Made by a program: the position numbers and the translations under genes | The notes under the pieces: generated by a model | What the model saw: only the letters and a program-made list of their open reading frames with translations | What the model was told of the DNA's origin: nothing | Database searches by the model: none | DNA from: Lactarius indigo | Taxonomy: Eukaryota > Basidiomycota > Agaricomycetes > Russulales > Russulaceae | Assembly (NCBI GenBank): GCA_025766275.1 | Contig: JAFKAC010000042.1 | Coordinates: 248,001 to 312,000, forward strand | Reading direction: 5' to 3' | Length of the DNA: 64,000 nt | Shown: positions 11,975 through 45,100 of the stretch, one piece after another | Position numbering within the stretch: position 1 is the first letter of the stretch | How the letters are laid out: each line of letters opens with the position of its first letter

Positions 11975-12661
11975 TGTGGCGAACTCACTGTCACTCGACA
12001 GCGAGGGATACGGTTGAAGACGACGGCGGGCGAAGTAGAGACGGAGAGAGCGTCGAAGATGACGAAGAGGAGGCGTTCTTGGCTCAAAGAAGGTAGTGGC
12101 GCACACAAGGTGGGGCACTCGAAGGAGCTGAGAGGCAAGAGGGGAAGATGTCACAAGTGGACAGTCTGAGGGACTGTCCGTAGAATTGCACCAGCTTATA
12201 TACTACAGGGGGTGGTCTGTGCGTCGGTTTAGGGCAGGCTTAGGGCCTGCCCACGGGTGCTGCGCAGTACTGCGCAAAGGAACATTCTAGAGACATCTAA
12301 CAATAGAGTCCAATCGGAAGGGGTTTAAACATAGAACAACTGCGCCGCAGTTGATGGTGCAATCTTGCATCAGAATGGCGTGATTCCGCAGTCAATGCGG
12401 GAATCCCCGAGGGGTGGTGACTTGGGTGATTATCTTCGTTGATTGATAAACGATCAACCGTTGATTGATACACGTGCAGGTAGGTATGCATGTGACTTGG
12501 AAAGACAGAGTAATCACGTGACACATCACGTGACCGTCGGAGAGCGAAATTCAAACTCCGATTTCGGATTTCCCCTTTAGGAAGTTGATGACATAAGCCC
12601 GGTCCGGTCCGGTCCGGTCCTAAGCGCCTTGAGTCACGACCCAGTTTATAGGTTCGTGACA
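11975..12661 (-). repeat. 3' LTR of element D
   Basis: Ends TGTCACGAAC...TTCGCCACA on the minus strand. Its U3 part holds several CACGTG boxes, four tandem GGTCC units (12600-12620), and the 16-bp palindrome TGCGCAGTACTGCGCA. The purine tract AAAAAGGGGATAC (12662-12676) borders it on the internal side. Confidence 0.96.
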
Positions 12662-12672
12662 GTATCCCCTTT

Positions 12673-15600
12673 TTAACGTCGTGCTATTCCACTAGCACTA
12701 GTTGACTTTGGTTTAGGGGCACCGGGGTTGGCCTTGTGAAATTGGCTAACAAGGTCTTGCGCATGGGTCATTTGGGAGGAGGGGAGCCAGGAGTTTTCAG
12801 AGTCGGGGTACCCCTTCCATTTGATCAAGTAAAGTACGCCTTTCTTGTTGGGCGATACCTTTGACTGCAGGATCCTTTCGATTTCATAGTGTTCGTCTTC
12901 CCCTTGGACAATTTCGGGGGGTGGTCGGGTGAAGTTAGGGCCGTGCGTGGTGTTTTCTTTGTATGGGGAGATCAAGGAATTATGGAAGACTGGGTGGATT
13001 CGCCATGTCTTTGGGAGTTGGAGTTTGCAGTTAACTCCCCAGGAGGATAGGACTTTAAAAGGACCATGGCGGCGGGGGGCGAGTTTAGCTTTGGGGTGGG
13101 TAGTGTGGATATTAGTCCCTTCCAGCCAGACTAGATCGCCTTCGTTGAACACGCGGGGGGTCGTGATTGACTTGGAATTTCTCATTACTTCTGCAGCGAC
13201 TTTGAGGGCTGCAGTGACTTCAGAGCGAATTCGGTTCAATGCGTCTAGTCTTTCCTCGGCTGCGGGTATCTTGCTATTGAAGTGGATGGGGGGAATGAAC
13301 TCCGGGTTGTACCCATACCACACTTCAAAGGGTGACTTGTGAGTTGCACTGTGCTGTCGTGCGTTGTGTGCGAATTCCATGAACGGGACTAGGTCTACCC
13401 AGTTGTCTTGTTGGAAGTTACAGAAGACGCGGAGGTACTGCTCGAGTTCTTGATTTACGCGTTTGGTTTCTCCATCTGTTTGCGGATGGAAAGCCGTGGA
13501 CAGGGTAGATTTGACTCCTAATTTATTCCAGATTTCTTGCATTACTTTTGATGCAAATTGAGGGCCTCTGTCAGAAATGACTTGTCGGGGTAGACCAGTA
13601 CGTCTCCAGACATTTTCCAGGTAAAGTTGAGCAGTTTCGTCTGCTGTGATGGTCTTGTTACACGGGGAAATGACTACTGCTTTACTGAGTCGGTCAACGA
13701 CTACGAACAACGAGTCGTAGTTGTGGGAGGAGGGGAGGTCGGTGATGAAGTCCATTGTGATGGTTCCCCAGATTTCTTCAGGAATAGCATTGGGTTGCAG
13801 GGGTACTTGGGTTCGTGGTTTAATTTTCGTAGACTGGCAGGTGGCACATCCATCGACGTATTCTTTGACAAACGTTGACATCCCTGGCCACCAAAAGTCT
13901 CGGGAAAGGAGTTCATAAGTCTTCCATCGCCCTGGATGTCCTGTAGCGATGTGGTCGTGATACTGAGTTACGATGTCTCTTCGTAAGTTGTCGTCTTTGG
14001 GTATGTAGATTTGTCCTCGGAATAAGATGACGCCATCTTCTAGATTCCACTCTTCTAGCCCCTTGGTTAAGGAACGGGGGCCATTCTTCAAGAGGGTTTC
14101 TAAGGCTGTGCTGACTTCTTTGTCATAGGTGTGTGTGTTTCGGATGCGTTGTCGAAGAGTATTATCACCGTAAATGGTAACTGCAGTTCTTTGTACTGCA
14201 TTAACCGAGAAAAATTTTGTGTCCAGGAGCACTCGTTTTTCATCTTCATCCGCTATCCCCTTTTTATGGTCTGGACGCCGGGACAGTGCATCAGACTTGT
14301 TCTGAGCACCAGGTTTGTGGATGATGATGAACTGGAAGCGAGAGAGGAACAGGGCCCAACGGGCTTGTCGGCGGGAAAGTTTCTGCTTTGTGGTAAAATA
14401 GACAAGGTTGCCATGGTCAGACCAGATTTCAGTAACGTCATCCCGTCCTTCCAGGTAGTGGCGGAAGGCATGCAAGGCATGGATGATGGCAAGAAGTTCC
14501 TTGTCACAGATTTCGTAGTGACGTTCGGCAGGAAGGAGGGATTTGGAAAGGAAAGCGACGGGGTGCCATCGTTGCAAGGCATCCGGTTGTTCAAGAATGG
14601 CACCGGTAGCAAAATCGCTTGCGTCGGTGATGAGACGGAAAGGCTTGGAATGGTCAGGCAGGGCGAGGACAGGAGCTTCGGTGAAACATTTAATCAGGGT
14701 GCGGAAAGCGGTTTCCGCTGCGGTATCCCAAGAAAAGGGGACGTTTTTCTTGGTTAGGTCGAACAATGGGCGGGCAATGGTGGAGTAGTCTTTAATGAAG
14801 CGTCGATAGAAATTGCAAAAGCCTAGGAAAGCCTGCACTTGTTTAACAGTGCGTGGAGTGGGCCATTGAGTAATACCTGCAACTTTTGCAGGGTCCATAG
14901 AAACTTGGCCATCGGAAATGACGATTCCGAGGTATTCGACGGAAGTTTGTGCAAATGTACATTTTTCAGGTTTTAGGTAGAGATCGTGGCGCTCCAGTCG
15001 TTGAAGCACGTCGTGCGTCAATGCTGTGAGTGAGGAGGCATCTTCTGTGAAGATCAAGATGTCGTCGAGGTAGACTACAACATGTCCACCATCGATCAAG
15101 GACTCAAAGATCTGGTTCATAAATGTCTGGAAGGTGGCAGGGGCGTTGCAAAGGCCGAAAGTCATTACTGTGGGTTCAAAGAGTCCCAAGGATGTTTTGA
15201 AGGCTGCCTTGTACTCATCGCCTTCTCGGATACGGATATTGTTGTATCCCCAACGAATATCTAGCTTGGTAAAGTAGCGCGCGCCGTGGAGTTTGTCGAT
15301 AAGTTCAGGGATAAGGGGAAGGGGGGCTGCGTTCTTAATGGTTATATCATTGAGGGCACGGTAGTCTTGTACAGGTCGGAGTTTGCCATCCTTTTTATCG
15401 ACAAAGAAAAAGGGGGAGGCCATGGGTGACTTAGATGGTCGAATGTAACCTTTCTTTAGGTGTTCCGAGATGTATTCCTTGAGGGCATCGGATTCCTTTG
15501 GCGTAAGTCGATAGATGCCACAATTCTTCATAGTGGCTCCTGGTTTGAGGTCAATTGCGTGATCCCAGGGCTGATGTTGGGGTAGTCGGTGAGACGCGAT

Positions 15601-16442
15601 TTCGCTGAATACTTTAGTATATCGTTGGAAGTGGCTCGGAATGTGGTCGGTGGAAGGCTTAGGTGCAGTGCGTGCTGCTATCTTGGTGCTTGTAGTTATC
15701 TTTGCTCGGATGGCAAGGTGGTCATACTTGCTAAAGCTGTGGATCCACAGCCAGGGTTCGCAGGCATCTTGGATAAAGGTGGGTTCCAGGGGTTCAATTT
15801 CGTTTTCCACGGGGAGACAGGTTTCTTGGTCAGGGTCAAGTTCCAGGATGTTAATAGTTGTGTGTCGTGTTTGTGGTGTCTTTGAAGAAATGACGACCGC
15901 TGAGGAGGACAGGGTACAGGTTCTTGGGCATCGTGTGAAGGCTATTTTTGGTTGGTGCCAGTCGATTTCAGGGTTATGTGCTTGGAGCCAATCTGTTCCT
16001 AAGATTATATCGTGCTCCCCTAGAGTAGTTGCATAGAGCTCCACGGTTTCGTCGTGGTAGTCGTTATCAGAAGTTCTGATCCGTAGCCTCTGGATCGTAG
16101 TATACCTAACAGATCCCGTCTTGTTGGGAGACCCGTCCACGTTTCTAACTGGTAAGGGTTTAATTAGTGTCCTCATTGTTAGGTTGTTTGCACGCGCAAA
16201 CCCATCATCCACGATGATGCCCTCCGCGCCACTGTCCAACAGGGCACGGGCACTGATTTCTTTGCCAGACTTCTTTCCTACTAGTGTAACTCTGAGAACA
16301 ATTGAAGGAGCTCTCCTATTCCGAATTGTTTCTGCAGGTACATGCTCGGCTCCGAACGTCTCTAGTAGGGAAAGGCCGTGTACAACGCTACTGGCACGAA
16401 TACTTCCAATCGACAGTGCTACGATGGAAGAGCCTAAAAATC
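12673..16442 (-). CDS. pol: Pol polyprotein of element D: protease, RT, RNase H, integrase, chromodomain
   Basis: Open frame of about 1,256 codons. It becomes open at 16442, right at the gag stop, in the -1 frame, with a TGA in this frame a few bases upstream. No own start is apparent, so it is probably made as gag-pol by frameshift. Counting from the Leu of LLDSG: protease DSG at 2-4, RT about 280-440 with YLDD at 390-393, RNase H about 530-650 (Asp539, Glu581, Asp608), integrase zinc region His763/His768 and Cys798/Cys801, DDE core with Asp830 and Asp890, chromodomain about 1118-1170 with the cage-type Tyr and Trp (YEIERIL, LIKWKGY). The third catalytic position, residue 926, is Lys (AAA) where A and C have Glu (GAA). 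This should abolish strand transfer by this copy. Gene order PR-RT-RH-IN-chromodomain is that of chromoviruses. Confidence 0.96.
16434..16442 (-). promoter_or_regulatory. Probable -1 frameshift site at the gag stop of D
   Basis: The gag frame ends GAT TTT TAG inside a run of five T. A Phe-tRNA on TTT can slip one base back onto TTT, after which TTA GGC opens pol. The pol frame is closed by TGA just upstream, so this is the only short window for fusion. The same bases occur in E (47889-47897) and in the older C (8708-8716). Confidence 0.6.
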
Positions 16443-17984
16443 CTCATTAATAGGCACCGAACGCGGACGTGCATCCGGGTCAAAAGGGAGTATCTCTCGA
16501 TATATCGCTCCTATGTTTGCTGGGTGGTCAGCAGGTTCTTCCTCCTGACTTGGTTCATCAACAAAGGCGCCGCGCGCCCTAGCGTTGTTGTTGGATTGGC
16601 CTCCTTTGGCCTTCATGGCTGCCGTCTTGGCGTGACATTCTTTAAGTACGTGGCCTGGCTTGCCACAGTATAGGCAGAGTTTATTCTTGAAGCGATACTC
16701 TCGCTCTTCCTTGGTAAGTTTGTTCCTTGGTTTGGTAGTACGAGATGAGGAAGCGTTGACATTAACGCTATCGTCCTCTGCTAGGACGGCTCGTCCTGTG
16801 GTGGGCTTATGGGTTTTGTTAAACTGGTTAATGGCGTGACCAGCGTAAATTCGATAGGCGCGATCGAATTCTCTTGCTTTCTCAACAAGGGTGTCGAAGG
16901 TGGTAGGGATAGGGGATATGCCGAGCAGCTTCATATTTAGAGCCGTTGGGATAGCTTGTCGGAAAGCGTACATCTTGGTCTGCTCGTTTGCACCACTTCG
17001 CGTAGCATGGGTCGACCATTCTTGGAACCATTCGTTGAAAGGTCGGGTCCCCATCTTTAGAGAGTACATTTTGTTCGTGGATTCCATGGCAGTGTGACCA
17101 GGAACAAAGTGTGCATCGAAGTTGGTTTTGAACTGTGCCCAGGTGCCGAAGCTAATTGCTGCACCACCGGTTGGGTTTAAGGCTTTCTTTTGCCTGTCTT
17201 GAGCCCATTCTCCTGCTGGGGTCCCAACCTTGAAATAGGTAAGGGCAGTGGATACCTTTTTGTCGTCAGAGTTAAAGATATCCTGATTTAGATGGAAGTA
17301 ATTGGCCAGGTTGTTCCAAAAGGCCTCAGCATGGTTGGGTTTGCCGTCGAAGGGCTCAGGCGCTGCGCCTAAGATTTTCGCCGGTGCAGGTGCTGCCATT
17401 GCGGTGGGTACAGGGAGGATGGATAAAGGGGGTACTGAGGAAGAGGCTTGAACAGTTAGGGGTGGTGATGGGAGTCGATGTGGGGGAACTGTTGCAGGGA
17501 AACGGCTAGGGCCGGAGGTACTAGGGGAAATCTGGGGTGTCGAGGGTCGGGAGGTTACTTGGGATAGTAGACCAGAGAGTTTTTTGGTGGTAGTGTCTAG
17601 GATTTGTGATACTTCTTCCGTATCACTTTTCGAATCGTCAGATTCACTAGGTGTATTGAAGTGGACCGGTTTATTGTTTAGGTAGATCCACTGCTCGTTC
17701 ACAAAGTTCCAACGAACGTTCTTTCCTTTGAAAGTGGCGTGTAGGGAATTGTAACTTAGGTCCTGGACTTTGTCGATACCAGGAAAGGCTTCTTTTAGGT
17801 CTTGAAAAACGATTTGGTGTTGGGTAGCGACTATTGTCCACGGGTGTTTTCCTGTAGGACTGGATATCTCCTCTTCCTTCCACTTGGCGTAGTAAAGATT
17901 GTCGGTAAGGGAAAAGTAGGGTTCGAAGAAGTATACTGGAATGTTGGCTTTTTCTTCGTCTGTGAGCGGTCGTTGCGTGTTCAT
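16434..17984 (-). CDS. gag: Gag of element D
   Basis: 516 codons, starting at ATG 17982-17984. This is the first ATG of any frame downstream of the LTR promoter. Residues 1-110 form a Trp/Tyr-rich N-terminal domain, 130-200 a Pro/Ser linker and about 205-390 the retrotransposon gag domain (EAFWNNLANYFHLN, FNEWFQEWSTHA). Residues 437-450 are a CCHC zinc knuckle (CLYCGKPGHVLKEC). It would form the virus-like particle and bind the RNA. The start overlaps the ORF3 stop as ATGA, which would allow reinitiation. The stop is the frameshift site into pol. Confidence 0.95.
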   Translation of the reverse strand: MNTQRPLTDEEKANIPVYFFEPYFSLTDNLYYAKWKEEEISSPTGKHPWTIVATQHQIVFQDLKEAFPGIDKVQDLSYNSLHATFKGKNVRWNFVNEQWIYLNNKPVHFNTPSESDDSKSDTEEVSQILDTTTKKLSGLLSQVTSRPSTPQISPSTSGPSRFPATVPPHRLPSPPLTVQASSSVPPLSILPVPTAMAAPAPAKILGAAPEPFDGKPNHAEAFWNNLANYFHLNQDIFNSDDKKVSTALTYFKVGTPAGEWAQDRQKKALNPTGGAAISFGTWAQFKTNFDAHFVPGHTAMESTNKMYSLKMGTRPFNEWFQEWSTHATRSGANEQTKMYAFRQAIPTALNMKLLGISPIPTTFDTLVEKAREFDRAYRIYAGHAINQFNKTHKPTTGRAVLAEDDSVNVNASSSRTTKPRNKLTKEEREYRFKNKLCLYCGKPGHVLKECHAKTAAMKAKGGQSNNNARARGAFVDEPSQEEEPADHPANIGAIYREILPFDPDARPRSVPINEDF

Positions 17985-18573
17985 TCACCTCTTCTGGTGA
18001 GACGGGTGACAGTCCAACTGTCCAGGTTCCAGGGGTAGTAGACTTTGTACGCAGGGAGGAGGATAGCTCTATCCGGACGGTGGGGTCTTTGTGAACGACG
18101 GATCCAATGGTATTCTTCCCAAATACCAAAGTGGGTCAGGGTTGTCTTACTTCTCCACAAGAAGTCTTGAAAATACAAGGGGTTTGTCGAAACCTCGCTT
18201 ATACGCGTAAGTGGCTGGGAAAAATACAGGGTTTCAAGATTGTGCCGGTTTTGGTACAACAGAGAACAGTGTCTTCTGAACACGTCGAGTTCTCGGGGGG
18301 TTCGGGTTGGTAGGCTCTTGGTTACTAAGATAGCTTCGGGGAGGTGACAATGGATTTCTCGGGGCTGGGTTTCGAGATACTGAGCTTCGTCGCTGCTTGT
18401 GGAATGCTGTCTTGCAGTCGGAGTTGCTTGGATACTAGGGTACACTGGTTCACTGGGATCGGCTTGGTTAATACTCGGGAGGGGAATCTGGGTGTTGGTA
18501 GCTCGACGAGCTCTGGGGGCCCTTCTTGGGGTAACAGGGGTACTAGGGGTAGAGGCTATTGGCCGATCGTCCA
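17981..18573 (-). CDS. ORF3 of element D, start codon probably made by splicing
   Basis: About 197 codons, no recognised family and no Met codon inside. The frame follows the acceptor TTCCAAG|TG (intron end at 18574). An upstream exon ending in A would give ATG-GAC-GAT. The N-terminal third is Pro/Thr/Arg-rich and basic. The C-terminal half (about 100-190) is rich in Trp, Tyr, Phe and Leu, with the motif FQDFLWRSKTTLTHFGIWEEYHW written here only in part as FQDFL and WEEYHW. No signal peptide or membrane segment is seen. It ends in an ATGA overlap with gag. The same frame is kept in E and recognisable in C. Function unknown; an accessory structural or RNA-binding role would be a guess. Confidence 0.75.
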
Positions 18574-18710
18574 CTTGGAAGCGACGATGAGTTCTTCTTT
18601 GGGCGACGTGTGAAGATGCCAGGTTAATTGCCCAATGAATTGGATCCAGGGTTTTGGCTTTGAAAATTGTCAAATTTTACACTCGTAAAATTTATTTTGA
18701 CAATCTATAC
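18574..18710 (-). promoter_or_regulatory. Candidate intron 3 of element D, ahead of ORF3
   Basis: 137 nt from GATA|GTATAG, four bases after the ORF2 stop, to CTTCCAAG|TG. A CTCAT branch-like site lies about 16 nt before the AG. Joining the exon-final A to TG creates ATG for ORF3. The donor is weaker than the two upstream ones; the LTR donor at 21122 could be used instead. The same bases are conserved in C (acceptor at 10902). Confidence 0.45.
18672..18704. repeat. AT-rich inverted repeat between ORF2 and ORF3 of D
   Basis: Arms GTCAAATTTTAC and GTAAAATTT..TTGAC around a 4-base loop (ACTC). It is also present in E and in C (near 10996-11033) with minor changes. It lies within candidate intron 3, so it could influence that splice. 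Confidence 0.55.
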
Positions 18711-18713
18711 TAT

Positions 18714-19696
18714 CTAGTCCTTTTCTCTATAAGGTAGATAGTTAACTCCAGGGGACCACAACACTACGTTGGGGGGTGTCGGGGGGGTGTTGGGACGATA
18801 ACCGCAGGTGCAGACTTCTTGAGAGCACCAACAGGGGCCTGAGGTCAGAGTTGGTCCCCAACCGTCGTTAGGGCTAGGCGGTTGGTTAGTGTCTCCGTTA
18901 TGTAGGGAGATGTCGGAGTCTGAAGATTCGTCTTCAGTTTCAGGGGAACTAGGGGGTAGCCGATCTGTAATTCGGCGGAGCAAGGGCGGAGTTCGGAAAG
19001 TTTCTCTAGCGTTGAGAATCGAGACTAACTCTGGGTCGTCAGAGGTAGAAGGGGGGTAGTGCCAGATACTTGGGTTTACAAGGTTTCGGTCGGGATTGGA
19101 CAGGGTAGTTTCCCACGTAGAGGTGGCGAAGGAGTAAGTAAACTCTGAACTATCAGAGATGACTAGACGGGGGGCAGAGTCGGGGTGAATGATCGCTCGG
19201 ATTTCTTGGAAGGAAATTTGTATTTCCTGATATGTGAGGCGGAGTCGGTCAACAAAATGAAGAGAGAAACCGTCTTCCAATTGCCGGATATAGTGGTCAC
19301 GACGAGGGGGAACGTGGACAAACCAAAGATAGTCGCTCTTGGTCCACACTAGGAGTTGATCTGTTGGGTGGTTGGTGGCGGAGACGGAGTTCGAAAGGTG
19401 CCAGTAAAGGAGTTGTTCGTCGGCAGCCTTGACGACTTCAGAAAGATCGTCAATAAACTCGTGATAAGCCCTTTCAGGGATGACTTCTCCAAAGTCAAAG
19501 AGGTCGATAAGGGTACGTAAGGCGGTAGGGGGTTCTGTCCAACAGTCAAGGCGGGGGTTGTCGATGAGGTCGTAAGTGGAAGTGACGGGGTAATAGCGGT
19601 CAAGTTGCCGCTGCCTGTGGGACTCGAAGTTAACTCGGGCTCGTGCGAGCCTCTGTTCTTCAGATAAGTTGAAGGTAAACGGAGTAGAAGGAGGCA
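18714..19696 (-). CDS. ORF2 of element D, start codon probably made by splicing
   Basis: 327 codons with no Met inside and no ATG start. The frame is closed by TAA directly before the acceptor (TTTAAG|TG, intron end 19697), so it opens exactly at the junction, and an exon ending in A would give ATG-CCT-CCT. The first 200 residues look globular with many Trp/Tyr/Phe (TYDLIDNPRLDCW, DYLWFVHVPPRRDHY). The region around 235-270 is Ser/Asp/Glu-rich. Near the C-terminus is a compact Cys cluster (CWCSQEVCTC) that may bind metal. No signal peptide or membrane segment is seen. No family recognised. The stop TAG is four bases before the candidate intron 3 donor. Confidence 0.78.
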
Positions 19697-19748
19697 CTTA
19701 AATCACTCGATTTAAGTCCAAAACCCAAATAAGTAAACACTTACTTAC
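19697..19748 (-). promoter_or_regulatory. Candidate intron 2 of element D, ahead of ORF2
   Basis: 52 nt, the usual size of introns in this window. Donor GCAAA|GTAAGT, branch-like CTTAT (CTTAC in C), acceptor TTTAAG|TG. Joining A to TG gives the ATG of ORF2. A TATATA motif lies about 45 nt upstream of the donor (19789-19797), so an internal promoter is also possible. All these bases are kept in C. Confidence 0.6.
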
Positions 19749-19804
19749 TTTGCGTTGCACTTAAAACACTCGTTTCAAGACAAGGCAAATATATAACCAC
19801 TTAT

Positions 19805-20104
19805 CTAAAGTGGCTGGTTGTCGGGAAAGGTGGAAATGAAACTAAAGGGGTCGGCAGGAATACGAGGCGAAAAACAATAAGCAAGAAGGTGGGGGGCGGA
19901 ACGAACCAAGTCCTCAAAGAAGTAAGCCTGCTGGTGAGCGTAAATTAGTCCGTCAAAAGAAAAACGTAAGTGTCCGTAAGTGGTCACAATTCTTCCGTCC
20001 AAAAAGTCCTGAATCTCTAGCGTCACCAGAGAGTCAATATATCCTGCCCTGTGTACGTTAGCGAGGGGGGCGAAGGCACGTCTCAGTCCTTCCCTGAAAT
20101 CGTA
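19805..20104 (-). pseudogene. C-terminal 100 codons of ORF1, cut off by TGA in D
   Basis: Continuation of the ORF1 frame after the TGA at 20105-20107, ending at TAG 19805-19807. In element C the stop codon position is a His codon (CAC) and the frame runs through, so the ancestral ORF1 was about 420 codons. The segment is globular (EIQDFLDGRIVTTYGHLRF, AYFFEDLVRSAP). It has no Met codon. Confidence 0.75.
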
Positions 20105-21066
20105 TCAGATAGTTCCGAGGGGGGTGTCAGGGGAGGGAAGGTCGTAGATGGCCTTGGAACAGATATACAAAGGAGGGAAGTCGGGGTGTTGAGCGGGGTC
20201 AACAACACGTGGGAAAAGGGTGTAGATGTGAGGGGGAAGAAGACGGAAAGGGGTAACAGAAGGAAAGACTGGGGGGAAATTGGCGAGCGAGGTGGCAAGG
20301 GGAACTTTACTAATCAGTTCCCGGAGGGTCGTGGAAGCGGGCCGCCAAGATTCTCCTTGGGGGGTGACGACGGCGATGTACTGGTGGGGGTGTTCTCCTT
20401 GAGAAAGGAGGCAAGGGGGGGCTTGGTAGGCGGTGGGGCCGAGGGGAGGGAGGTTCTCTTGTTCAGGGTGAGGGGCCGGAGGGAAAACGGGGCCTTGTTC
20501 GGCTACTCGCTCGTAGTCAATCGGCGAGTCGGGGGTCGCAAGACGGGAGGGGACCGGAACAGGAGACGGAGAGCGACGAGGAGTCGGAGGAAGAACAGGA
20601 GGTGGCGAAGGAGAGCCACGAAGGGAAATAGGGGGGCGGGGGGTCGGGACTCGGAGGGGAGGCGCAGACTCGGCGCGGGGTTCAGGGGACAGGGGGATGA
20701 CGTTCCCGTTGAGGTCGATGATCTCGAGGACCTCTTCGTAGAACTGGGCAACACTGGGGGACAAGGGACGAGGGGAAGGGCGAGGAGTGGCTTCTTCAGC
20801 CGGGGCGTAGGGATAAACTAGTTCGGGGGTTGCGTCCCGAACGAGGGCGACAGGGGCGGGGGGCTCGGCACCACCGAAGGTGGCGGGGGTGTAGGGGGCG
20901 GTGAAGCGAAGGCTGTCGAGGCGGACAGCAGAGGTGGAGGGGACAGGGGAGGTGCGGGAAAAGTCGAGGGGGCTACCTTGGTTGTCGAATTCTGACTGGT
21001 AGCTAGCAGAATCTCCGTCCCACTGACCGTACTGCGAGAAGTCGTACTCGTAGTTGTAGTCAGTCA
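20105..21066 (-). CDS. ORF1 of element D, start codon probably made by splicing
   Basis: About 320 codons, without any Met codon or ATG start. The frame begins at the acceptor CCCCAG|TG (intron end 21067), and a preceding exon ending in A gives ATG-ACT-GAC. The N-terminus is Tyr/Asp/Ser/Gln-rich (DYNYEYDFSQYGQW), then Pro/Ser/Ala-rich with many S-P and T-P pairs to about residue 210, then a more ordered part (HQYIAVVTPQGESW). It looks largely disordered, and no family is recognised. The TGA at 20105 truncates it compared with C. E carries the same stop. An envelope role is unlikely because there is no signal peptide, membrane span or Cys-rich ectodomain. Confidence 0.75.
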
Positions 21067-21122
21067 CTGGGGAAGCCCGAGGTCAGTCTATTAAAGAGAC
21101 TGTCCAAGTGTGGCGAACTCAC
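21067..21122 (-). promoter_or_regulatory. Candidate intron 1 of element D spanning LTR end and primer-binding site
   Basis: 56 nt: donor GACA|GTGAGT inside the last 14 bases of the 5' LTR, branch-like CTGAC (21082-21086), acceptor CCCCAG|TG. Removing it joins A to TG and makes the ORF1 ATG, which would be the first ATG of the spliced RNA. In C the intron is 55 nt (29836-29890) with the same donor, branch and acceptor type, although ORF1 codon 2 differs. The intron contains the putative primer-binding site, so only unspliced RNA could be reverse transcribed. Confidence 0.7.
21097..21106 (-). promoter_or_regulatory. Putative primer-binding site of element D
   Basis: TGGACAGTCT lies two bases inside the 5' LTR. 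It is the exact reverse complement of AGACTGTCCA in the LTR (21292-21301), which starts 35 bases downstream of the TATATAA box, close to where transcription should begin. This fits self-priming by the RNA 5' end, as known for Tf1/sushi-type chromoviruses. No clear tRNA 3' match was recognised. Confidence 0.5.
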
Positions 21123-21795
21123 TGTCACTCGACAGCGAGGGATACGGTTGAAGACGACGGCGGGCGAAGTAGAGACGGAGAGAGCGTCGAAGATGACGAA
21201 GAGGAGGCGTTCTTGGCTCAAAGAAGGTAGTGGCGCACACAAGGTGGGGCACTCGAAGGAGCTGAGAGGCAAGAGGGGAAGATGTCACAAGTGGACAGTC
21301 TGAGGGACTGTCCGTAGAATTGCACCAGCTTATATACTACAGGGGGTGGTCTGTGCGTCGGTTTAGGGCAGGCTTAGGGCCTGCCCACGGGTGCTGCGCA
21401 GTACTGCGCAAAGGAACATTCTAGAGACATCTAACAATAGAGTCCAATCGGAAGGGGTTTAAACATAGAACAACTGCGCCGCAGTTGATGGTGCAATCTT
21501 GCATCAGAATGGCGTGATTCCGCAGTCAATGCGGGAATCCCCGAGGGGTGGTGACTTGGGTGATTATCTTCGTTGATTGATAAACGATCAACCGTTGATT
21601 GATACACGTGCAGGTAGGTATGCATGTGACTTGGAAAGACAGAGTAATCACGTGACACATCACGTGACCGTCGGAGAGCGAAATTCAAACTCCGATTTCG
21701 GATTTCCCCTTTAGGAAGTTGATGACATAAGCCCGGTCCGGTCCGGTCCGGTCCTAAGCGCCTTGAGTCACGACCCAGTTTATAGGTTCGTGACA
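21109..21795 (-). repeat. 5' LTR and promoter of element D
   Basis: 687 bp. TATATAA box at 21330-21336. Downstream is the perfect hairpin GGACAGTC-loop-GACTGTCC (21293-21313). The transcribed leader has no ATG. U3 (right part) has CACGTG boxes, the palindrome TGCGCAGTACTGCGCA and GGTCC tandems. The final bases supply the intron 1 donor. Confidence 0.95.
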
Positions 21796-22084
21796 GTGTG
21801 AGCCTTTGTTCTTCAGATAAGTTGAAGGTGAATGGAGTAGAAGGAGGCACTTAAATCACTTGATTTAAGTCCAGGACCCAAGTAAGTAAACACTTACTTA
21901 CTTTGCATTGTACTTAAAACACTTGTTTCAAGACAAGGCAAATATATAACCACTTATCTAAAGTGGCTGGTCGTCAGGAAAGGTGGAAATGAAACTAAAG
22001 GGGTCCACAGGGACTCGAGGGGAAAGACAGTAAGCAAGAAGGTGGGGGGCAGAACGAACCAAGTCCTCAAAGAAATAGGCCTGG
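21796..22084 (-). pseudogene. Element C: ORF2 N-terminus, candidate intron 2 and ORF1 C-terminus
   Basis: Continuation of C to the right of D, starting with the TSD GTGTG. It holds the first codons of ORF2 (acceptor G at 21850), the conserved donor GCAAA|GTAAGT, and the end of ORF1 (stop TAG 21958-21960) up to the H1 insertion. Confidence 0.85.
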
Positions 22085-24097: not shown

Positions 24098-24419
24098 CAC
24101 ATAAAGATCTGCCATGACTTCCATAACTGATGGGCCAACCGACGGTGAGAGTCTTACATATGTCATGGGCCAGCCGATGTCGGCCAACGCAGGAGATTCC
24201 TCCAAAACTCATGGGCCAGCCGATGTCGGCTCGGAGACATTTACTCCGGAGTTGTGGTCCGAAGGAGTAGATATGGGAGTGCACAGGGATTTTCAGATAT
24301 CTAGAAATCATTAGTGGAGAGATGGAACTGAAGGAAGCACTCCAAGACCATATGTGTATAATGGAGTGGGGTGTATAAACATCTGCAGGTCCAAGGAAAT
24401 TGCACATGTTCTGGAGGAG

Positions 24420-25700
24420 CACATCCAAGATTATATGGGTGTGCCAGAGGGTATAAACATGTATGGGTGTCTGAGATATCTTGGACATGCTTCGGACCAA
24501 TATGTCCGAGATTACGTCCACATACTGGAGGGTATTAACATGTATGGGTGTCCGAGATATCTCGGACATGCTTCGGACCAATATGTCCGAGATTACGTCC
24601 ACATACTGGAGGGTATTAACATGTATGGGTGTCCGAGATATCTCGGACATGCTTCGGACCAATATGTCTGAGATTACATCCACATATTAGAGGGTATAAA
24701 CATGTATGGGTGTCCAAAAAATCTCGGACATGCTTTGGACCAATATGTCCGAGATTACATCCACATACTGGAGGGTATTAACATGTATGGGTGTCCGAGA
24801 TATCTCGGACATGCTTTGGACCAATATGTCCAAGATTATGTCCACATACTGGAGGGTATTAACATGTATGGGTGTCCAAGATATCTTGGACATGCTTTGG
24901 ACCAATATGTCCGAGATTACATCCACATATTAGAGGGTATTAACATGTATGGGTGTCCGAGATATCTCGGACATGCTTCGGACCAATATGTCCGAGATTA
25001 TGTCCATATACTGGAGGGTATAAACATTTATGGGTGTCTGAGATATCTCGGACATGCTTCGGACCAATATGTCCGAGATTATATGCACATACTGGAGGGT
25101 ATTAACATGTATGGGTGTCCAAGATATCTTGGACATGCTTCGGACCAATATGTCTAAGATTATGTCCACATATTAGAGGGTATAAACATGTATGGGTGTC
25201 CAAAAAATCTCGGACATGCTTCGGACCAATAGGTCCAAGACTATATAGGTGTACTGAAGGGTATAAACATGTATGGGTGTCTGAGATATCTCAGACATGC
25301 TTCAGACCAATATGTCCGAGATTACATCCACATATTAGAGGGTATAAACATGTATGGGTGTCCAAAAAATCTCGGACATGCTTTGGACCAATATGTCCGA
25401 GATTACATCCACATACTGGAGGGTATTAACATGTATGGGTGTCCAAGATATCTCGGACATGCTTTGGACCAATATGTCCAAGATTATGTCCACATATTAG
25501 AGGGTATTAACATGTATGAGTGTCCAAGATATCTCAGACATGTTATGGACCAATAGGTCCGAGATTATATAGGTGTACTGGAGGGTATAAACATGTATGG
25601 GTGTTTGAGATATCTCAGACATGTTCCAGAGCAATATGTCTGAGATTATGTGGGTATACCAGAGGGTATAAACATGTACAGGTGTCCAAGATATCTCTGG
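24420..25700 (+). repeat. Left array of 81-bp repeats in J (about 16 units)
   Basis: The marker ATGTATGGG (or a close variant) recurs every 81 bases from 24459 to 25674 without slippage. Each unit carries an 18-bp palindrome, typically GTCCGAGATATCTCGGAC, followed by GGACCAATATGTCC, itself an inverted repeat. 81 is a multiple of three, so long frames of a 27-residue repeat appear, but see the rejected list. Confidence 0.95.
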
Positions 25701-26083
25701 ATGATTAGCCTAGAGTGTCTAGCCATGTGTATGCATTCAGAGACTAGGACCCCATAGATATATTCTGCATGAATTGTTTCCACAGCCAAGGCTCATGTAT
25801 GTGTACTTATTATGTTCTCTCCCATTGTAATGATTACCCCATGTTACTTGATTGGAACATGTACACTCCCTTTATTATTAGTTATTAGTCTAATTGATCA
25901 GGCACAAAGGACAGTATGTGTCATTTCCATTCATTTCAGAGTATTTAGTAAGTTCTCTTTGTTATGACTTGACACATCCAGTGTCACAGTGTAAGCTCCA
26001 CTCAACCATTTCTACACTTGATGACTTCCACGAAGCCTTGAAGTGTTTCCTGCCTGATAAACTCCAGCACACCCACATAATGT
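25701..26083. other. Unique centre of J
   Basis: AT-richer single-copy DNA between the two arrays. On the plus strand a frame of about 50 codons (motif STISTLDDFHEALKCFLPDKL, about 25998-26060) looks protein-like and might be a captured gene fragment, but I do not recognise it. Confidence 0.45.
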
Positions 26084-28335
26084 ATTGCTCCAGAACATGT
26101 CCAAAATATCTTGGACATCCATACATGTTAATACCCTTTAGTAGGTGCTCATAATCTTGGATGTTACGCTCCACCGGCGTTAGTCCGACTTGGACTCGTG
26201 AAAGGCGTAATCGACTTAGCAGAAGGTAGGCGAATGGGGATCACGTGTCAACCCAACGCAGGCTGAACAGGGGCACACTGGCACACGCTGCAGCAGAAGG
26301 ATAAAGAGAGGTGTCCCTTGGTAGACACTTAGAGGAGGCACACTTGGTCGAAGACCAAGGCAGACAAGAGACGATTCAGAAGGTGGATTGAAGAAGACCA
26401 AGATGGAGACTCTTGGTCTTCCGAGTCGACTACTTATACAAATACGCGCGGGCTTTAAAGCGCCGCTGGAATAGTAGGTAACCAATAGCGTAACTAGCTC
26501 GAACCCTAGTACAGCTATCCTAGGAATGAGTCATACATGAGTCACAATCACATGCGAACTACTATGCTGACTGATGCGATGTAAGAGTCCATGACTAATA
26601 TCAACCGGACCGTAGTCATAACCGGTCATGAGTCGTGTGTAATGAGTCATCAAGTCCGTACCGTAACATTGGACATATTGGTCCGGAACATGTCTGAGAT
26701 ATCTTGAACACCCATACATGTTTATACCCTCCAGTACACCTACTATATAATCTTGGACATATTGGTCCGAAGCATGTCCGAGATATCTTGGACACATATA
26801 CATGTTAATACCCTCCAGTATGTGGACGTAACTCGGACATATTGGTCTGAAGCATGTCCGAGATATCTTAGACACCCATACATGTTAATACCCTCCAATA
26901 TGTGGACGTAATCTTGGACATATTGGTCCAAAGCATGTCTGAGATATCTTGGACACCCATACATGTTAATACCCTCCAGTATGTGGATGTAATCTTGGAC
27001 ATATTGGTCCAAAGCATGTCCGAGATATCTTGGACACCCATACATGTTAATACCCTCCAATACACCTATATAATCTCGGACCTATTGGTCCGTAACATGT
27101 CCGAGATATCTCAGACACCCATACATGTTAATACCCTCTAATATGTGGATGTAATCTCGGACATATTGGTCCAAAGCATGTCCAAGATTTTTTGGACACC
27201 CATACATGTTAATACCCTCCAGTATGTGGATGTAATCTCGGACCTATTGGTCCAAAGCATGTCCGAGATTTTTTGGACACCCATACATGTCAATACCCTC
27301 TAATATATGGATGTAATCTCGGACATATTGGTCCAAAGCATGTCCGAGATATCTCGGACACCCATACATGTTAATAACCTCCAGTACACCTATATAGTCT
27401 CGGACCTATTGGTCCGAAGCATGTCCGAGATATCTTGGACACCCATACATGTTAATACCCTCCAGTATGTGGACATAATCTTGGACATATTGGTCCGAAG
27501 CATGTCCGAGATATCTCAGACACCCATACATGTTAATACCCTCTAATATGTACACATAATCTTGGACATATTGGTCCAAAGCATGTCCGAGATATCTCGG
27601 ACACCCATACATGTTAATACCCTCTAATATGTGGATGTAATCTTGGACATATTGGTCCGAAGCATGTCCGAGATATCTTGGACACCCATACATGTTAATA
27701 CCCTCCAGTATGTGGATGTAATCTCGGACATATTGGTCCGAAGCATGTCCGAGATTTTTGGACACCCATACATGTTTATACCCTCTAGTACACCTATATA
27801 ATCTCGGACCTATTGGTCCGTAACATGTCTGAGATATCTTGGACACATATACATGTTAATATCCTCCAGTATGTGGACGTAATCTCGGACATATTGGTCC
27901 GAAGCATGTCCGAGATTTTTTGGACACCCATACATGTTTATACCCTCTAATATGTGGATGTAATCTCGGACATATTGGTCCGAAGCATGTCCGAGATATC
28001 TCGGACACCCATACATGTTAATACCCTCCAGTATGTGGACGTAATCTCGGACATATTGGTCCGAAGCATGTCCAAGATATCTCAGACACCCATAAATGTT
28101 TATACCCTCCAGTATATGGACATAATCTTGGACATATTGGTTCGAAGCATGTCTGAGATATCTCGGACACCCATACATGTTAATACCCTCCAATACACCT
28201 ATATAATCTCGGACCTATTGGTCCGTAACATGTCCTAGATATCTCGGACACCCATACATGTTCATACCCTCCAGTATGTGAACATAATCTTGGACATATT
28301 GGTCCGGTACATGTCTGAGGTATCTTCACCATCTG
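26084..28335 (-). repeat. Right array of 81-bp repeats in J (about 20 units, inverted)
   Basis: Same unit as the left array but reverse-complemented, with a few units 1-3 bases shorter (AGATTTTTTGGAC variants). The first unit is split by the solo LTR at 26162. The two arrays would fold into a very large cruciform or a long double-stranded RNA. Confidence 0.95.
26162..26668 (-). repeat. Solo LTR inside the right array (507 bp)
   Basis: TGTTACG..CGTAACA, TSD TTGGA at 26157-26161 and 26669-26673. It is closely similar to the one at 23510, including the GAAGACCAAGAT hairpin. Confidence 0.9.
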
Positions 28336-29129
28336 TGTTACGGTTGTATGTCCGTAGTGTCCGACTTGGACGAAACTGTGGGAACACAATGCCCCAAACA
28401 GTCAGCCAACTTACGGGGGAGGCAGTCACAGCCAAGGCGTCCCCTAGTCGACAAAGGTACTGGCAGCCTTTTTTCAGACAGAAGTACTGAGAGGCAGAAA
28501 ATGGCAGATAAGAGAGAGCAGGAAGGGAAATGAGCAGACAGCCCAGCTCAAAAGATAGAGGGAGAACCGCAAACAGCAGGTACAATTCCACAAGATCTCA
28601 AGCTGGAGAGTAGGGAATACAAACTACTCTACTTATACTCCAGCTATCGTTCGGTTCAAACTCAGAAACCCTAATACAACGATCCTAGGGTGAGTAATCG
28701 TACAGTAAGAGTGTCATCGGGAGTGTGTAATCATCAGTCAGCATACAGTTGGTCATCCAATCAGAACGAGACATCAGTCATCCTTATCGTAACAGTGTAA
28801 TCATCTATGAGTCATCCGCAATCAGTATCAGTCATCAGGTACCAAACATCAGTCAGCCAGGCACAAGCTCATCTGGACTCTTCCGGTGCATTCTAGCCAG
28901 GTCACATGCCGGGGTCACGTGACGGGCGATGTGGATATTGCTTTATCCGGGCCGGTGGAACCTACAATTCTGCGCATCATCGCAGAAGGTCCAGTGGAAT
29001 CGCGGGCCGGGGCACTTATCTTTTGGTCTTCGGCTTATCTCAGCCCTTTCTTCATTATCCTCTTTTTCATCATGTGATTGCGTCCGTCGTATCGCCGTTT
29101 GCCGAGGTCGTGAGGGTGAAACCGTAACA
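28336..29129 (-). repeat. Solo LTR H2 (794 bp)
   Basis: Reverse-oriented copy of H1, TSD ATCTG (28331-28335 and 29130-29134), inserted at the outer edge of the right array of J. Confidence 0.88.
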
Positions 29130-39188: not shown

Positions 39189-42100
39189 CTAAGTACACAA
39201 GAGTCCCATGTCATCATTGTGCTTCTGCAGCAGGACACGCGGTAGTGACTTTGTAAAGCCGTCCGCAACCATATCCACAGTAGGAGTTCTAATGAGGGTG
39301 ATGGTCCCCTTTTCGATGTACTCCCTAATGACATGATGCCGTATGGCAATGTGCTTAGACCGTCTCCCAGTGACAGGGTTCAAGGCCAAGTCAATGGCAC
39401 CCTTATTATCACCATGAAGTGGGATGGGGTCGTCGACCTCGTACCCGAGTTCCGTGAGGAAGCTCTGATACCACGCAGCCTGGTTAGCCGCGTCGGTCAT
39501 GGCCATGTATTCCGCTTCCGTTGTGTTTTGGGCAACAGTCTTTTGCTTGCGCGAAGACCAGCTTATTGCACCGTTAGCTAGTAGGAACACATAACCAGAG
39601 GTGGAGTGGCGGTCATCAGTCTGGTCAGCCAGACTGGAATCAGTGTAGCCATGAAGGCCATCGCCATTGGCGCCATCATAGACAATACGCATATCCATAG
39701 TTCCCACTAAGTAGGATAGGACATACTGCGCAAGTCGCAGATGTTGTGGTGAAGGATTTGCTGCGTACTGCGCCAAACGTGACACAGCGAAGGAGATATC
39801 TGGCCTAGTGCCAATCTGCACATAAAGCAGACTCCCAATCAAGGACTGGTAATGGGAAATATCTGAGGCAGTTGCCTGCGACGTATATTTAACCAGGTGC
39901 TCGTCAGCACCAGCGGGCAAGGGTGTGTTATGTGGTGTGGCATCAGACATGCCAAAGCGTTCAAGGACATCCTTGATGTAGCCAGACTGATCTATTTCGA
40001 TGCGTCTGAGGGAGCGGTCGCGCACAATGCGCATACCAAGATAAGACTCTATCTCCCCGAGATCTGTCATCTCATAGCGTTCAGACAAATCTGACTTCAA
40101 ACGCTTGATACCACTCAGCGAGGGACCCAGTATAGTGATGTCGTCAACGTAGACAATAACGAAGAGTGGATCATACCCCTCCCGTTGAGGCATCACATAT
40201 ATGCCAGCATCAGCAAACGTCCGCTTAAAGCCGAGTGCAGTTAGCACTCCATGGAGTTGCAAGTTCCATGCGCGGGAGGCCTGTTTGAGACCATAGATCG
40301 CCTTAACCAGGCGACACACCTTCGTCTCAGAGCCAGTGACAGTGAAACCTTGTGGCTGCTCCATGTAAATCTCTTCGTCAAGCACGCCATTGAGAAAAGC
40401 AGACTTAACATCCATCTGATGGATGTGCCAGTCCTCCAGCGCGGCCAACGCCAGAAGTAAACGTAGCGACTCAAATCGTGCGACGGGAGAGAAGGTTTCA
40501 TCAAAATCTATGCCAGGGATCTGCGTGAATCCCTTAGCCACCAAGCGAGCTCTGTAGCGGCCATCCGCTTTGAGCTTAAAGACCCATTTGGATTTTACTG
40601 CCTTGCGATTAGGCGGGAGATCCACTAACTCCCAAGTCCCATTTTTAGCTAGGGCGTCCATTTCGTACTGACATGCCTTAGACCACTCATCTGAAGCTGC
40701 AGACCGCATGGCCTCTGCATAGGTTGCAGGGTCTCGGCCAATAAAAGCAGCAGCCAGTAACTCCGCATACCCCAGACGCCTGCCGCGCCATGCCGCATTG
40801 TCTGCATTGAAGTAACGCGGATTAGGGACAGGGGCACGAGCACTGCGCCTTGGTGCATTGTCCATCTCACACAACAGCTGACTTCGCTGTGCATGATCCT
40901 CAAATCCCCCAGGCATTTCTGGTGAGGGAGGAGGGACATGGCGCATAATGCGCGTTGCACTAGGACGCGGCGGGGGTGAAGTGGGAGTGGCTTGCTCACG
41001 CTTTGGTGTGGTGGGCGGAGCCGGCAGAGTGGGTGGTGGTGTGGTAGGGCGTGGTTGGACTTGTGGGGGGTCTAGGAGCTTTTCAACATCCTCCTCCTCA
41101 CTACTACTGGAGTGTGCAGGGGAGGGGGCTCGCATTGGTGGTAACGCCGGCGGGTGAGGCACGGCAGTCACTGTTGTGCTAGGCACAACTGGTGGTGAAG
41201 GTGTGGGGTGTGTCTCAACACCCTGGAGGGACGGGAAGCTACTCTCGTCGAATGTCACATCCCTGGACACTCGAACGGAGCGGGTTGAGCGGTCCCAGAG
41301 CTTATAGCCCTTAGATTCGGGCTCAAACCCGATAAGCGTGACCTCAATGGCCTTCGCATCCAATTTGCGACGCTTATCAGCGGGTACGTGCATGTACCCC
41401 TTACATCCAAAGACGCGGAGATGTGAGACATCGGGCACTTTGCCAGAGTGCCAGAGCTCGTAAGGAGTGCGCCACTTAAGCCCACGGATTGGAGAGCGGT
41501 TATAGATGTGCACAGCTGCGCACACTGCATGCTCCCAGAAGCCTTTAGACATGCCAGCTGTGTGGAGCATGGACATTGCCTTATCCATAATGGTGCGGTT
41601 AAACCACTCGGCTTTTCCGTTGGACTGTGGTGAACCTGGCATCGTGAGGTGATGTTCTATCCCTTTCTGCTTAAGAATGTCCTGCGTGACACTCGACATG
41701 TATTCGCCACCGCGGTCAGAGTGCAGAGCGCGCAGTTTATGGCCAGACTGGGTTTCACCCCATGCCAAATACATCTGCAGCGACTTAGCAAACTGGTCCT
41801 TCGACTTAAGAAAGTGTACCACAGTGAACTTAGTGTGGTCGTCTATGAAGGTGGCAGTATAGGTCGAGCCTTGCAGGGACTGAGTCTGCATAGGACCGGC
41901 GAGGTCACTGTGCACAATCTCAAATTGACGAGTTGTCCTTTTGTTGGAAGACGCAGAAAAGGGTTGGCGAGTGGATTTACCCATCTCGCACCCACGGCAG
42001 ACTGTGTGGGCCGTGGTGGAGCTATCTATGTCCATGCCGGTAGTGGCAGAGGGACCATGCACCTTCAGCGCCGCAGAGGAGATGTGTCCCATGCGTTGAT

Positions 42101-45100
42101 GCCAGATATCAAGTGTGGCAGCACTTGATTTTGTGTGGGCGTTGAGGCCGACGCTGGCTGCGTCCAACCAGTAAAGGTTGTCCTCAAGGTAGCCTTTGGC
42201 CACACACTTTTGGTTGATAGATATTTTAAATGAGCCACTATCAAAGGCAATCTCAGCACCTTTCTGTGCTAAGGCGCGCGTCAACAAGAAGCGCGTCTTC
42301 ACCTGTGGTAGGTGTAGCACATTACTGAGGGTGATAGAGATACCCTGGCTCGTTGTAAAGACGACAGACCCGACACCCACTTGGTCTATGGTGGACTTGT
42401 CCCCTAGGCGTACAGTGCCTTTAGTTGGGGTATAGTCCTTGAAGTCAGACCGATGTGGTGTTATGTGGTGTGTAGCACCACTGTCCATCATCCAACGCAC
42501 ATGTGAGGCAGCATACAAGGCAACACCGATTGATTCAGAGGCCCAATCTATCTTGGGCTCTACGACCTCCATGATGGAGGCGGTGGTAGGTACTAGGACA
42601 TGACTATTGGCAGCCTTGTTGCCTGCTTTCTCCTTCTCCTTTGCGTCAGCCTCATCCTTCTTCCTCTTCCTGCAATCAGGCTTGATATGCCCCTTTTTGT
42701 TGCAATAGTGGCAAGTCAGACCAGAGTGGTCTTTCTTGCCCTTTTTGCCCGTCGACTTGACGGGGGCCATCTTGTTGAGGGAGGAGCCAGAGGGCCCGGA
42801 GCGGCGAGCTTCTTCTAACACTATGCGCGCTATGATCTCAGCGTGCTTGAGTGCAGATGGGGCCCCACTGGCGAGGATGGTAGAGGCCAACACCTCATAA
42901 GAGGGCGGCAGTGCGTGAAGGAGAATGAGACAGAATTGAGTGTCAGTGACACCCATCTGTGCGTTGGAAAGGGCAACCCGCAGCTCATTGAGCTTGGCCA
43001 ATTGAGAGGCCATGGGTGCGGAGTCGTCGAGGCGGGCTTTAGTTAGCTGGATCCACAAATTGAAGATAGTGGTGCTGCCCGAAGCACCAGCGTATACGTC
43101 TCTGAGCTTGTCCCACTTGGCTTTGAAGGTGGGATAGGCGGCATTGTCGGCAACAAGGGAGTAGACGTCAGGTTTGAGGTAAAGGCGGAGATATGCCTTC
43201 GCCTGATGCTGTACTGAGTCCCATTCGTCTTGAGGGACGTCAACTGGTCCATGGTGGAGGGTGAACACATCCTCTGCTTCATGCAGCGTGAGGATGGCTT
43301 CAATCGTCCCAGACCACTCATTCCAGTGAGTGCCGTCGAACTGTTCAAGGCGAATGCCAGAAGGCATGCCGAACGTTGCGCCATAGGCAGCAGAGATATG
43401 AGCAGAGGGTGAGGATCCAGTAGGGGGAATGTGGCGAACTCACTGTCACTCGACAGCGAGGGATACGGTTGAAGACGACGGCGGGCGAAGTAGAGACGGA
43501 GAGAGCGTCGAAGAGGACGAAGAGGAGGCGTTCTTGGCTCAAAGAAGGTAGTGGCGCACACAAGGTGGGGCACTCGAAGGAGCTGAGAGGCAAGAGGGGA
43601 AGATGTCACAAGTGGACAGTCTGAGGGACTGTCCGTAGAATTGCACCAGCTTATATACTACAGGGGGTGGTCTGTGCGTCGGTTTAGGGCAGGCTTAGGG
43701 CCTGCCCACGGGTGCTGCGCAGTACTGTGCAAAGGAACATTCTAGAGACATCTAACAATAGAGTCCAATCGGAAGGGGTTTAAACATAGAACAACTGCGC
43801 CGCAGTTGATGGTGCAATCTTGCATCAGAATGGCGTGATTCCGCAGTCAATGCGGGAATCCCCGAGGGGTGGTGACTTGGGTGATTATCTTCGTTGATTG
43901 ATAAACGATCAACCGTTGATTGATACACGTGCAGGTAGGTATGCATGTGACTTGGAAAGACAGAGTAATCATGTGACACATCACGTGACCGTCGGAGAGC
44001 GAAATTCAAACTCCGATTTCGGATTTCCCCTTTAGGAAGTTGATGACATAAGCCCGGTCCGGTCCGGTCCGGTCCTAAGCGCCTTGAGTCACGACCCAGT
44101 TTATAGGTTCGTGACAGTATCCCCTTTTTAACGTCGTGCTATTCCACTAGCACTAGTTGACTTTGGTTTAGGGGCACCGGGGTTGGCCTTGTGAAATTGA
44201 CTAACAAGGTCTTGTGCATGGGTCATTTGGGAGGAGGGGAGCCAGGAGTTTTCAGAGTCGGGGTACCCCTTCCATTTGATCAAGTAAAGTACGCCTTTCT
44301 TGTTGGGCGATACCTTTGACTGCAGGATCCTTTCGACTTCATAGTGTTCGTCTTCCCCTTGGACAATTTCGGGGGGTGGTCGGGTGAAGTTAGGGCCGTG
44401 CGTGGTGTTTTCTTTGTATGGGGAGATCAAGGAATTATGGAAGACTGGGTGGATTCGCCATGCCTTTGGGAGTTGGAGTTTGCAGTTAACTCCCCAGGAG
44501 GATAGGACTTTAAAAGGACCATGGCAGCGGGGGGCAAGTTTAGCTTTGGGGTGGGTAGTGTGGATATTAGTCCCTTCCAGCCAGACTAGATCGCCTTCGT
44601 TGAACACGCGGGGGGTCGTGATTGACTTGGAATTTCTCATTACTTCTGCAGCGACTTTGAGGGCTGCAGTGACTTCAGAGCGAATTCGGTTCAATGCGTC
44701 TAGTCTTTCCTCGGCTGCGGGTATCTTGCTATTGAAGTGGATGGGGGGAATGAACTCCGGGTTGTACCCATACCACACTTCAAAGGGTGACTTGTGAGTT
44801 GCACTGTGCTGTCGTGCGTTGTGTGCGAATTCCATGAACGGGACTAGGTCTACCCAGTTGTCTTGTTGGAAGTTACAGAAGACGCGGAGGTACTGCTCGA
44901 GTTCTTGATTTACGCGTTTGGTTTCTCCATCTGTTTGCGGATGGAAAGCCGTGGACAGGGTAGATTTGACTCCTAATTTATTCCAGATTTCTTGCATTAC
45001 TTTTGATGCAAATTGAGGGCCTCTGTCAGAAATGACTTGTCGGGGTAGACCAGTACGTCTCCAGACATTTTCCAGGTAAAGTTGAGCAGTTTCGTCTGCT

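Follow-up and report, generated by a model that had tools for sequence, protein, structure and literature searches.

The 64,000-nucleotide window of Lactarius indigo DNA analysed here carries element D, a full-length Ty3/gypsy chromovirus on the minus strand (21795-11975). D is nested inside an older copy, C, and a second copy, E, is 99.9% identical to D over 9.8 kb. The LTRs are direct repeats with TG...CA ends and target duplications (CACAC around D, TTCCC around E), and pol has Pfam matches to RVT_1, RNase H, H2C2, rve and Chromo, with reverse transcriptase, RNase H, integrase and a C-terminal chromodomain in order. The inferred RNA 5' end lies 35 nt past the TATA box. The primer-binding site, just after the LTR and complementary to this inferred end, is evidently of the self-priming (Tf1) type. 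The letters of the primer site also occur just upstream of the gag ATG (TGGACAGTTGGACTGTC, 17984-18025), where pairing with the inferred 5' end of the RNA would be possible. Three open reading frames, ORF1-3, precede gag (Table 1). A search with Rfam at the gathering threshold gave no family in the window.

Table 1. Features of element D, in order along the minus strand (a slash marks a candidate exon-intron boundary).
Feature	Position	Strand	Details
5' LTR (TG...CA, 687 nt)	21109..21795	-	LTR repeats; ends and CACAC duplication read from sequence
TATA box in 5' LTR	21336-21329	-	
Inferred RNA 5' end, AGACTGTCCA	~21301	-	inferred from TATA box and primer-site complement
GAGT-loop hairpin, 3' strand holds donor 1	21118..21139	-	
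Intron 1 (candidate), 56 nt	21067..21122	-	donor A/GTGAGT in last 15 nt of LTR, acceptor CAG/TG; 48/50 loci, pair test
Primer-binding site TTGGACAGTCT	21097..21107	-	inside intron 1; complementary to AGACTGTCCA at inferred RNA 5' end
ORF1, 420 codons, no Met codon	19805..21066	-	omega 0.10 within family A
GAGT-loop hairpin upstream of donor 2	19760..19779	-	
Intron 2 (candidate), 52 nt	19697..19748	-	donor A/GTAAGTAAGT, acceptor AAG/TG; 49/50 loci, pair test
GAGT-loop hairpin, 3' strand holds acceptor 2	19696..19717	-	
ORF2, 327 codons, no Met codon	18714..19696	-	C-terminal CWC..CTCGYRP.TPPTPP motif; omega 0.06 within family A
GAGT-loop hairpin between ORF2 stop and ORF3 CTG	18671..18694	-	
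ORF3, 222 codons from CTG 18649	17981..18649	-	A at -3, G at +4; TGA stop overlaps gag ATG
gag	16434..17984	-	first AUG 17984 in weak context; no further ATG until strong AUG 17399
pol (protease, RT, RNase H, integrase, chromodomain)	12673..16443	-	Pfam matches
3' LTR	11975..12661	-	LTR repeats, ends read

The genome (90.3 Mb, 291 contigs) was searched for copies, and the 50 loci were divided into family A (L001-L030, L049 and L050) and family B (L031-L048). This DNA comparison covers one genome, in which copies within a family share ancestry and are not independent; independent support comes from family A versus family B, from Lactarius gene models and from metagenome proteins. Median omega for ORF1, ORF2 and ORF3, computed for at most 25 randomly drawn pairs of intact copies per class (39, 41 and 40 of the 50 loci were intact), is 0.10, 0.06 and 0.05 within family A and 0.10, 0.23 and 0.04 within family B. 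Between the families it is 0.16, 0.25 and 0.08, which are approximate values since dS there approaches or exceeds 1. By these ratios the three ORFs are evidently real proteins under purifying selection. In D itself ORF1 is interrupted by an in-frame TGA at 20107-20105; among the copies listed, this TGA at codon 321 occurs in the D and E copies alone (L001 and L002). ORF2 proteins of the two families share approximately 47-57% identity. Set against an ORF2 that is about 50% identical, gag is mostly 90-96% identical between the families, a contrast that points to recombination or to rapid change in the leader ORFs.

Lactarius gene models are the closest named homologs of ORF1-3, and the most distant metagenome homologs share roughly 30% identity. 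Methionine counts excluded the 32 named Lactarius models because these carry predicted extra exons. Among the remaining homologs, those of ORF1 being drawn from the best 8,000 candidates scored, internal Met is absent from 49 of 69 for ORF1, 10 of 13 for ORF2 and all seven for ORF3; in total there are 39 Met in 26,998 residues, 3 in 3,940 and 0 in 1,559, respectively. The 69 metagenome ORF1 proteins from these best 8,000 candidates start with V (41), M (19) or L (9), and in several longer ones (P0031, P0051, P0078 and P0079) the primer site is read through as HTWTV, YTWTV or NTWTV. Pfam domains were found neither in D ORF1-3 nor in the 20 members of the ORF1 alignment. Comparison with solved structures gave no match for ORF2 and one insignificant match for ORF3 (E 0.83). 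Relatives' DNA was sought by one ORF2 scan each of genome contigs and viral contigs, with none confirmed, and searches of this genome for further families, in which distant relatives of ORF2 and ORF1 served as queries, led mostly to places already known.

The minus strand of D has no ATG between 21419 and 17984. Its leader, taken from the inferred RNA 5' end at 21301 to the gag AUG at 17984, is 3,317 nt long with 22 CAT and 0 ATG, compared with 32.6 ATG expected in 21301-17985 from base composition and 19.1 from a first-order Markov model. The ATG desert described in an earlier, sequence-only reading of this DNA is thus real, and it makes the leader AUG-free in all frames, as RTBV-type leaky scanning requires of upstream ORFs. 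ATG was also counted per locus in the 48 of 50 loci in which the stretch running from immediately before ORF1 to gag has both its ends: 26 carry none, 11 carry one, four carry two and seven carry 3 to 28. The ATG-richest loci are short of ACG, as if ACG had decayed to ATG. The desert is present in both families and lost in old copies. In the ORFs of 15 copies there is no out-of-frame ATG, compared with approximately 5-10 after synonymous shuffling; these copies were picked for having no ATG and the observed zero is true by selection, so the main test of the desert is D against expectation together with the counts in all 48 loci. Out-of-frame ATG is not depleted in gag from 17399 (11 versus 9.8 expected) or in pol (44 versus 33.8), and is depleted in the 195-codon gag N-terminus (0 versus 3.7).

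The same reading proposed that each of the three ORFs obtains its start codon by splicing, an A before the donor being joined to TG after the acceptor. For ORF1 and ORF2 the letters are as described: the frames open at CCCAG/TG (21067/21066) and TTTAAG/TG (19697/19696), neither ORF contains an ATG, and a TAA stands directly before the GTG of ORF2, both in D and in 49/49 loci. The donors are GACA/GTGAGT (A at 21123) and GCAAA/GTAAGT (A at 19749), giving introns of 56 and 52 nt, and A plus TG joined across intron 1 or intron 2 is the ATG of ORF1 or ORF2. The statement that all junctions are kept in a diverged copy C holds for the AG/TG letters of junctions 2 and 3 and fails on divergence, since C is 91% identical here; C is also not ATG-free (for example, ATG at 21908).

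Across the genome, junction 1 is found in 48 of 50 loci, in frame in 48/48, with an intron of 54-56 nt; the exceptions are L038, without an ORF1 start, and L045, in which the donor is lost and AG/TG kept. Junction 2 occurs in 49 of 50 loci with an intron of 47-53 nt, L045 again having lost the donor. Both junctions are common to families A and B in sites, frame, spacing and preceding A. We searched for A/GTRAGT donors with AG/TG 40-80 nt downstream in D, in the family-B copy L034 and in 2,000 random leaders from a Markov model of D. The pairs leading into long frames are, in both D and L034, junctions 1 and 2 (320 codons, up to the TGA, and 327 in D; 418 and 341 in L034). D has in addition one pair opening just 2 codons and a second in-register GTAAGT reaching acceptor 2. 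The Markov leaders have a mean of 0.032 pairs, and none has two pairs or a pair opening at least 200 codons. Chance as the source of junctions 1 and 2 was rejected, with 0/2,000 random leaders having two pairs.

The named Lactarius models (n = 32), which are gene predictions and copies within a few species, read SD-M-SD at junction 1 in 15 cases, where AGT GAC A/TG would join, and (A/T)T-M-PP at junction 2 in six. Two of them (P0006 and P0121) run straight through the ORF1 junction as PLV-SD, and two (P0030 and P0088) reach the ORF1 acceptor from a different donor. The spliced ORF1 AUG would have G at -3 in 48/48 loci. For ORF2, A or G is at -3 in 17/17 B loci and 6/32 A loci; the C found in the other 26/32 A loci is not in favour of splicing. 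Also against splicing are the AAG acceptor of intron 2, both ends of which are in hairpins, and its lack of a textbook branch site. Gaps of 40-70 nt between neighbouring actin-family matches (56, 70, 47, 67 and 40) give a hint that such intron sizes are normal in this genome.

At ORF3 the features of an intron-split start codon, namely an A before the donor, an in-frame TG and an intron-like distance, do not come together in most loci, whereas junctions 1 and 2 have them all. The codon at 18574, where the A/TG junction had been placed, is GTG in just 19 of 48 readable loci and otherwise GTA (24), ATA (2), GCA (2) or GCG (1), and therefore ATG is impossible there in most loci. By eye, the donor GATA/GTATAG is missing from the family-B copies and altered in the A copies L013, L021, L049 and L050. 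With the acceptor codon variable and the donor not kept, a splice-built start of ORF3 was rejected. Protein-like conservation of ORF3 reaches 25 codons above 18574, as far as CTG 18649. Position -3 of this CTG is A and position +4 is G in 49 of 50 loci; L042 falls outside the CTG pattern by its following codons alone and has the same context by eye. A non-AUG start in strong context is thus found at the ORF3 CTG and not at the GTGs of ORF1 and ORF2. In the ORF3 alignment, four of the six other homologs (P0020, P0021, P0024 and P0026) have Leu-Glu at our Leu-Asp column, P0022 has Leu-Glu four residues upstream and P0025 starts downstream; P0023, which also starts downstream, was left out. On this evidence, CUG 18649 is most likely the start of ORF3.

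The ORF3 stop overlaps the gag ATG in family A (ATGA) and lies just upstream of it in family B. In D and the seven family-B copies examined, gag has a weak AUG (17984 in D) and a strong next ATG (17399), 585 nt on. The weak-then-strong order suggests two Gag forms by leaky scanning. From the weak AUG, gag has a 195-codon N-terminal extension before the strong one.

In the reading that we prefer, with a probability of roughly two in three, the AUG-free leader is scanned in unspliced RNA to the ORF3 CUG and to gag, and removal of intron 1 or intron 2 builds the AUG of ORF1 or ORF2. Three accessory proteins would thereby be expressed from an AUG-free 3.3-kb leader ahead of gag. Some ribosomes scanning the unspliced RNA would start ORF3 at CUG 18649, others would start at the weak AUG 17984, and the remainder would reach the strong gag AUG 17399. 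We infer that some of the transcripts lose a short spliceosomal intron, the A/TG junction then being the first AUG of the spliced mRNA: removal of intron 1 (21122-21067) would give the ORF1 AUG, and removal of intron 2 (19748-19697), or joining of donor 1 to acceptor 2, the ORF2 AUG. The self-priming primer-binding site would be lost together with intron 1, and hence the ORF1 mRNA should be a dedicated message. The N-termini predicted by this reading are MTDYNYEYD for ORF1, MPPSTPFTF for ORF2 and, with initiation at the CUG, M-DPIHWAINL for ORF3. Of the switch as first proposed, the parts concerning ORF1 and ORF2 (conserved sites, Lactarius models) and gag from unspliced RNA are retained, and a CUG takes the place of the splice-built start of ORF3.

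Alternatively, nothing is spliced, and ORF1 and ORF2 start at their GUGs (21067 and 19697) on unspliced RNA, with RTBV-like leaky scanning that passes from non-AUG starts to a weak and then to a strong AUG. Both ORFs do open with GTG on unspliced RNA in the loci scored, V is the most frequent first residue of the metagenome ORF1 proteins (41/69 from the best 8,000 candidates), and the ATG-free leader and the CUG of ORF3 suit leaky scanning. GUG initiation is known in viruses, but according to PMC3542737 non-AUG initiation normally requires a purine at -3 and G at +4. At -3 the ORF1 and ORF2 GTGs have a pyrimidine (C or T), whereas the ORF3 CTG has A. Starts at GUG would moreover leave unexplained the A/GTRAGT donors at intron-like distance, the A kept before GTG, and the pyrimidine-rich stretch before the ORF1 site. 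We consider this explanation unlikely.

Structure could also act in place of splicing, with the hairpins between the ORFs driving internal entry or reinitiation at non-AUG codons. D has GAGT-loop hairpins of 6 or more pairs at 21139, 19779, 19717 and 18694; the 3' LTR copy of the first is the only other one. In nine picked copies there are 25 GAGT hairpins with at least 7 pairs and at most five with any other tetraloop, numbers that do not amount to a significance test because the nine copies are related. The first hairpin is shorter in some A copies (L014 and L024); the family-B copies listed keep hairpins 1 and 2, with the third bulged and the fourth missing. Strong hairpins between the ORFs, in D and in the folded B copies, and the ATGA overlap of family A would suit such a mechanism. 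However, internal entry needs no leader that is ATG-free in all frames, and both families retain the letters of donor and acceptor even where the stems around them differ, which makes this explanation very unlikely. If ORF1 and ORF2 starts are instead built by splicing, as we prefer, the GAGU hairpins might form a switch: a protein of the element would bind them, cover donor 1 and acceptor 2 and shut off the splice-built AUGs. Gag would be the obvious candidate binder, its accumulation moving RNA from ORF1 and ORF2 translation to gag translation and packaging. We offer this addition tentatively and think it rather improbable.

Slighter still is the chance that ORF1-3 are internal exons of longer proteins, with the ATG in an exon outside the element or in U3. 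Several Lactarius models do add upstream exons with ATG, and two, as described above, use another donor with the ORF1 acceptor, but D lacks ATG between its inferred RNA 5' end and 17984, stops lie just before ORF1 and ORF2, and conserved protein sequence starts at the junctions. That base composition or codon choice produced the desert as a side effect has a negligible probability: the leader is C-rich and G-poor, but the expectation of 19.1-32.6 ATG in D contradicts this origin, as do the shuffled ORFs of the 15 copies chosen as ATG-free and the undepleted gag (from 17399) and pol.

Among known systems RTBV offers the closest working model, and D would extend RTBV-type AUG-free leaky scanning. 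According to PMC5902531, RTBV and the badnaviruses, like D, carry accessory ORFs that lack internal AUG in front of the main ORF, and RTBV combines leaky scanning and a weak AUG before a strong one with RNA splicing, as we propose for D. The two differ in host, element type and proteins; in the non-AUG start, which is AUU in RTBV and probably CUG in D; in the AUG-free stretch, which is about 900 nt in RTBV and 3.3 kb in D, approximately 3.7 times longer; and in splicing, which in RTBV fuses a short uORF to a distal ORF, whereas in D the junction itself appears to make the AUG. D is a fungal LTR retrotransposon, with two start codons apparently made by splicing. RTBV-type ribosome shunt with a short uORF has no counterpart in D, in whose AUG-free leader a short AUG-started uORF, a feature of shunting, is not possible.

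In retroviruses the donor lies near the U5 end, unspliced RNA serves as gag message and genome, and spliced RNA yields accessory proteins. D resembles them in the position of its donor and probably in the division between unspliced RNA (gag) and spliced RNA (accessory proteins); unlike them, it has its accessory ORFs upstream of gag, its donor before the primer-binding site and a start codon that would be assembled at the junction. Neither accessory ORFs in front of gag nor an AUG-free leader is known to us from Tf1 and Tj1. These fission yeast elements are, like D, fungal Ty3/gypsy elements with a primer-binding site complementary to their own RNA 5' end (PMC4600332). In BARE, a plant copia element, splicing separates translation from replication RNA, as it may in D, but it favours Gag, whereas in D it would favour the accessory proteins (PMC3735527 for BARE). 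The accessible part of a survey of fungal LTR elements (PMC3248453) makes no mention of an additional ORF, of sequence upstream of gag or of an intron. In the part of the open-licence literature covered, we recognised no description of splice-built start codons in a retrotransposon or of the family of D.

If the preferred reading is true, a retroelement chooses its protein through the very presence or absence of a start codon in the RNA, and keeps kilobases of coding sequence free of AUG and Met to allow splice-built starts. A spliced ORF1 message without a primer site would likewise keep translation apart from replication. Gene callers that need ATG easily misread such genes.

Elsewhere in the window are a Ty1/copia element at 39189-43439, with a single open frame of 1,416 codons, and two 81-bp tandem-repeat arrays in opposite orientation (24323-25756 and 26706-28381).
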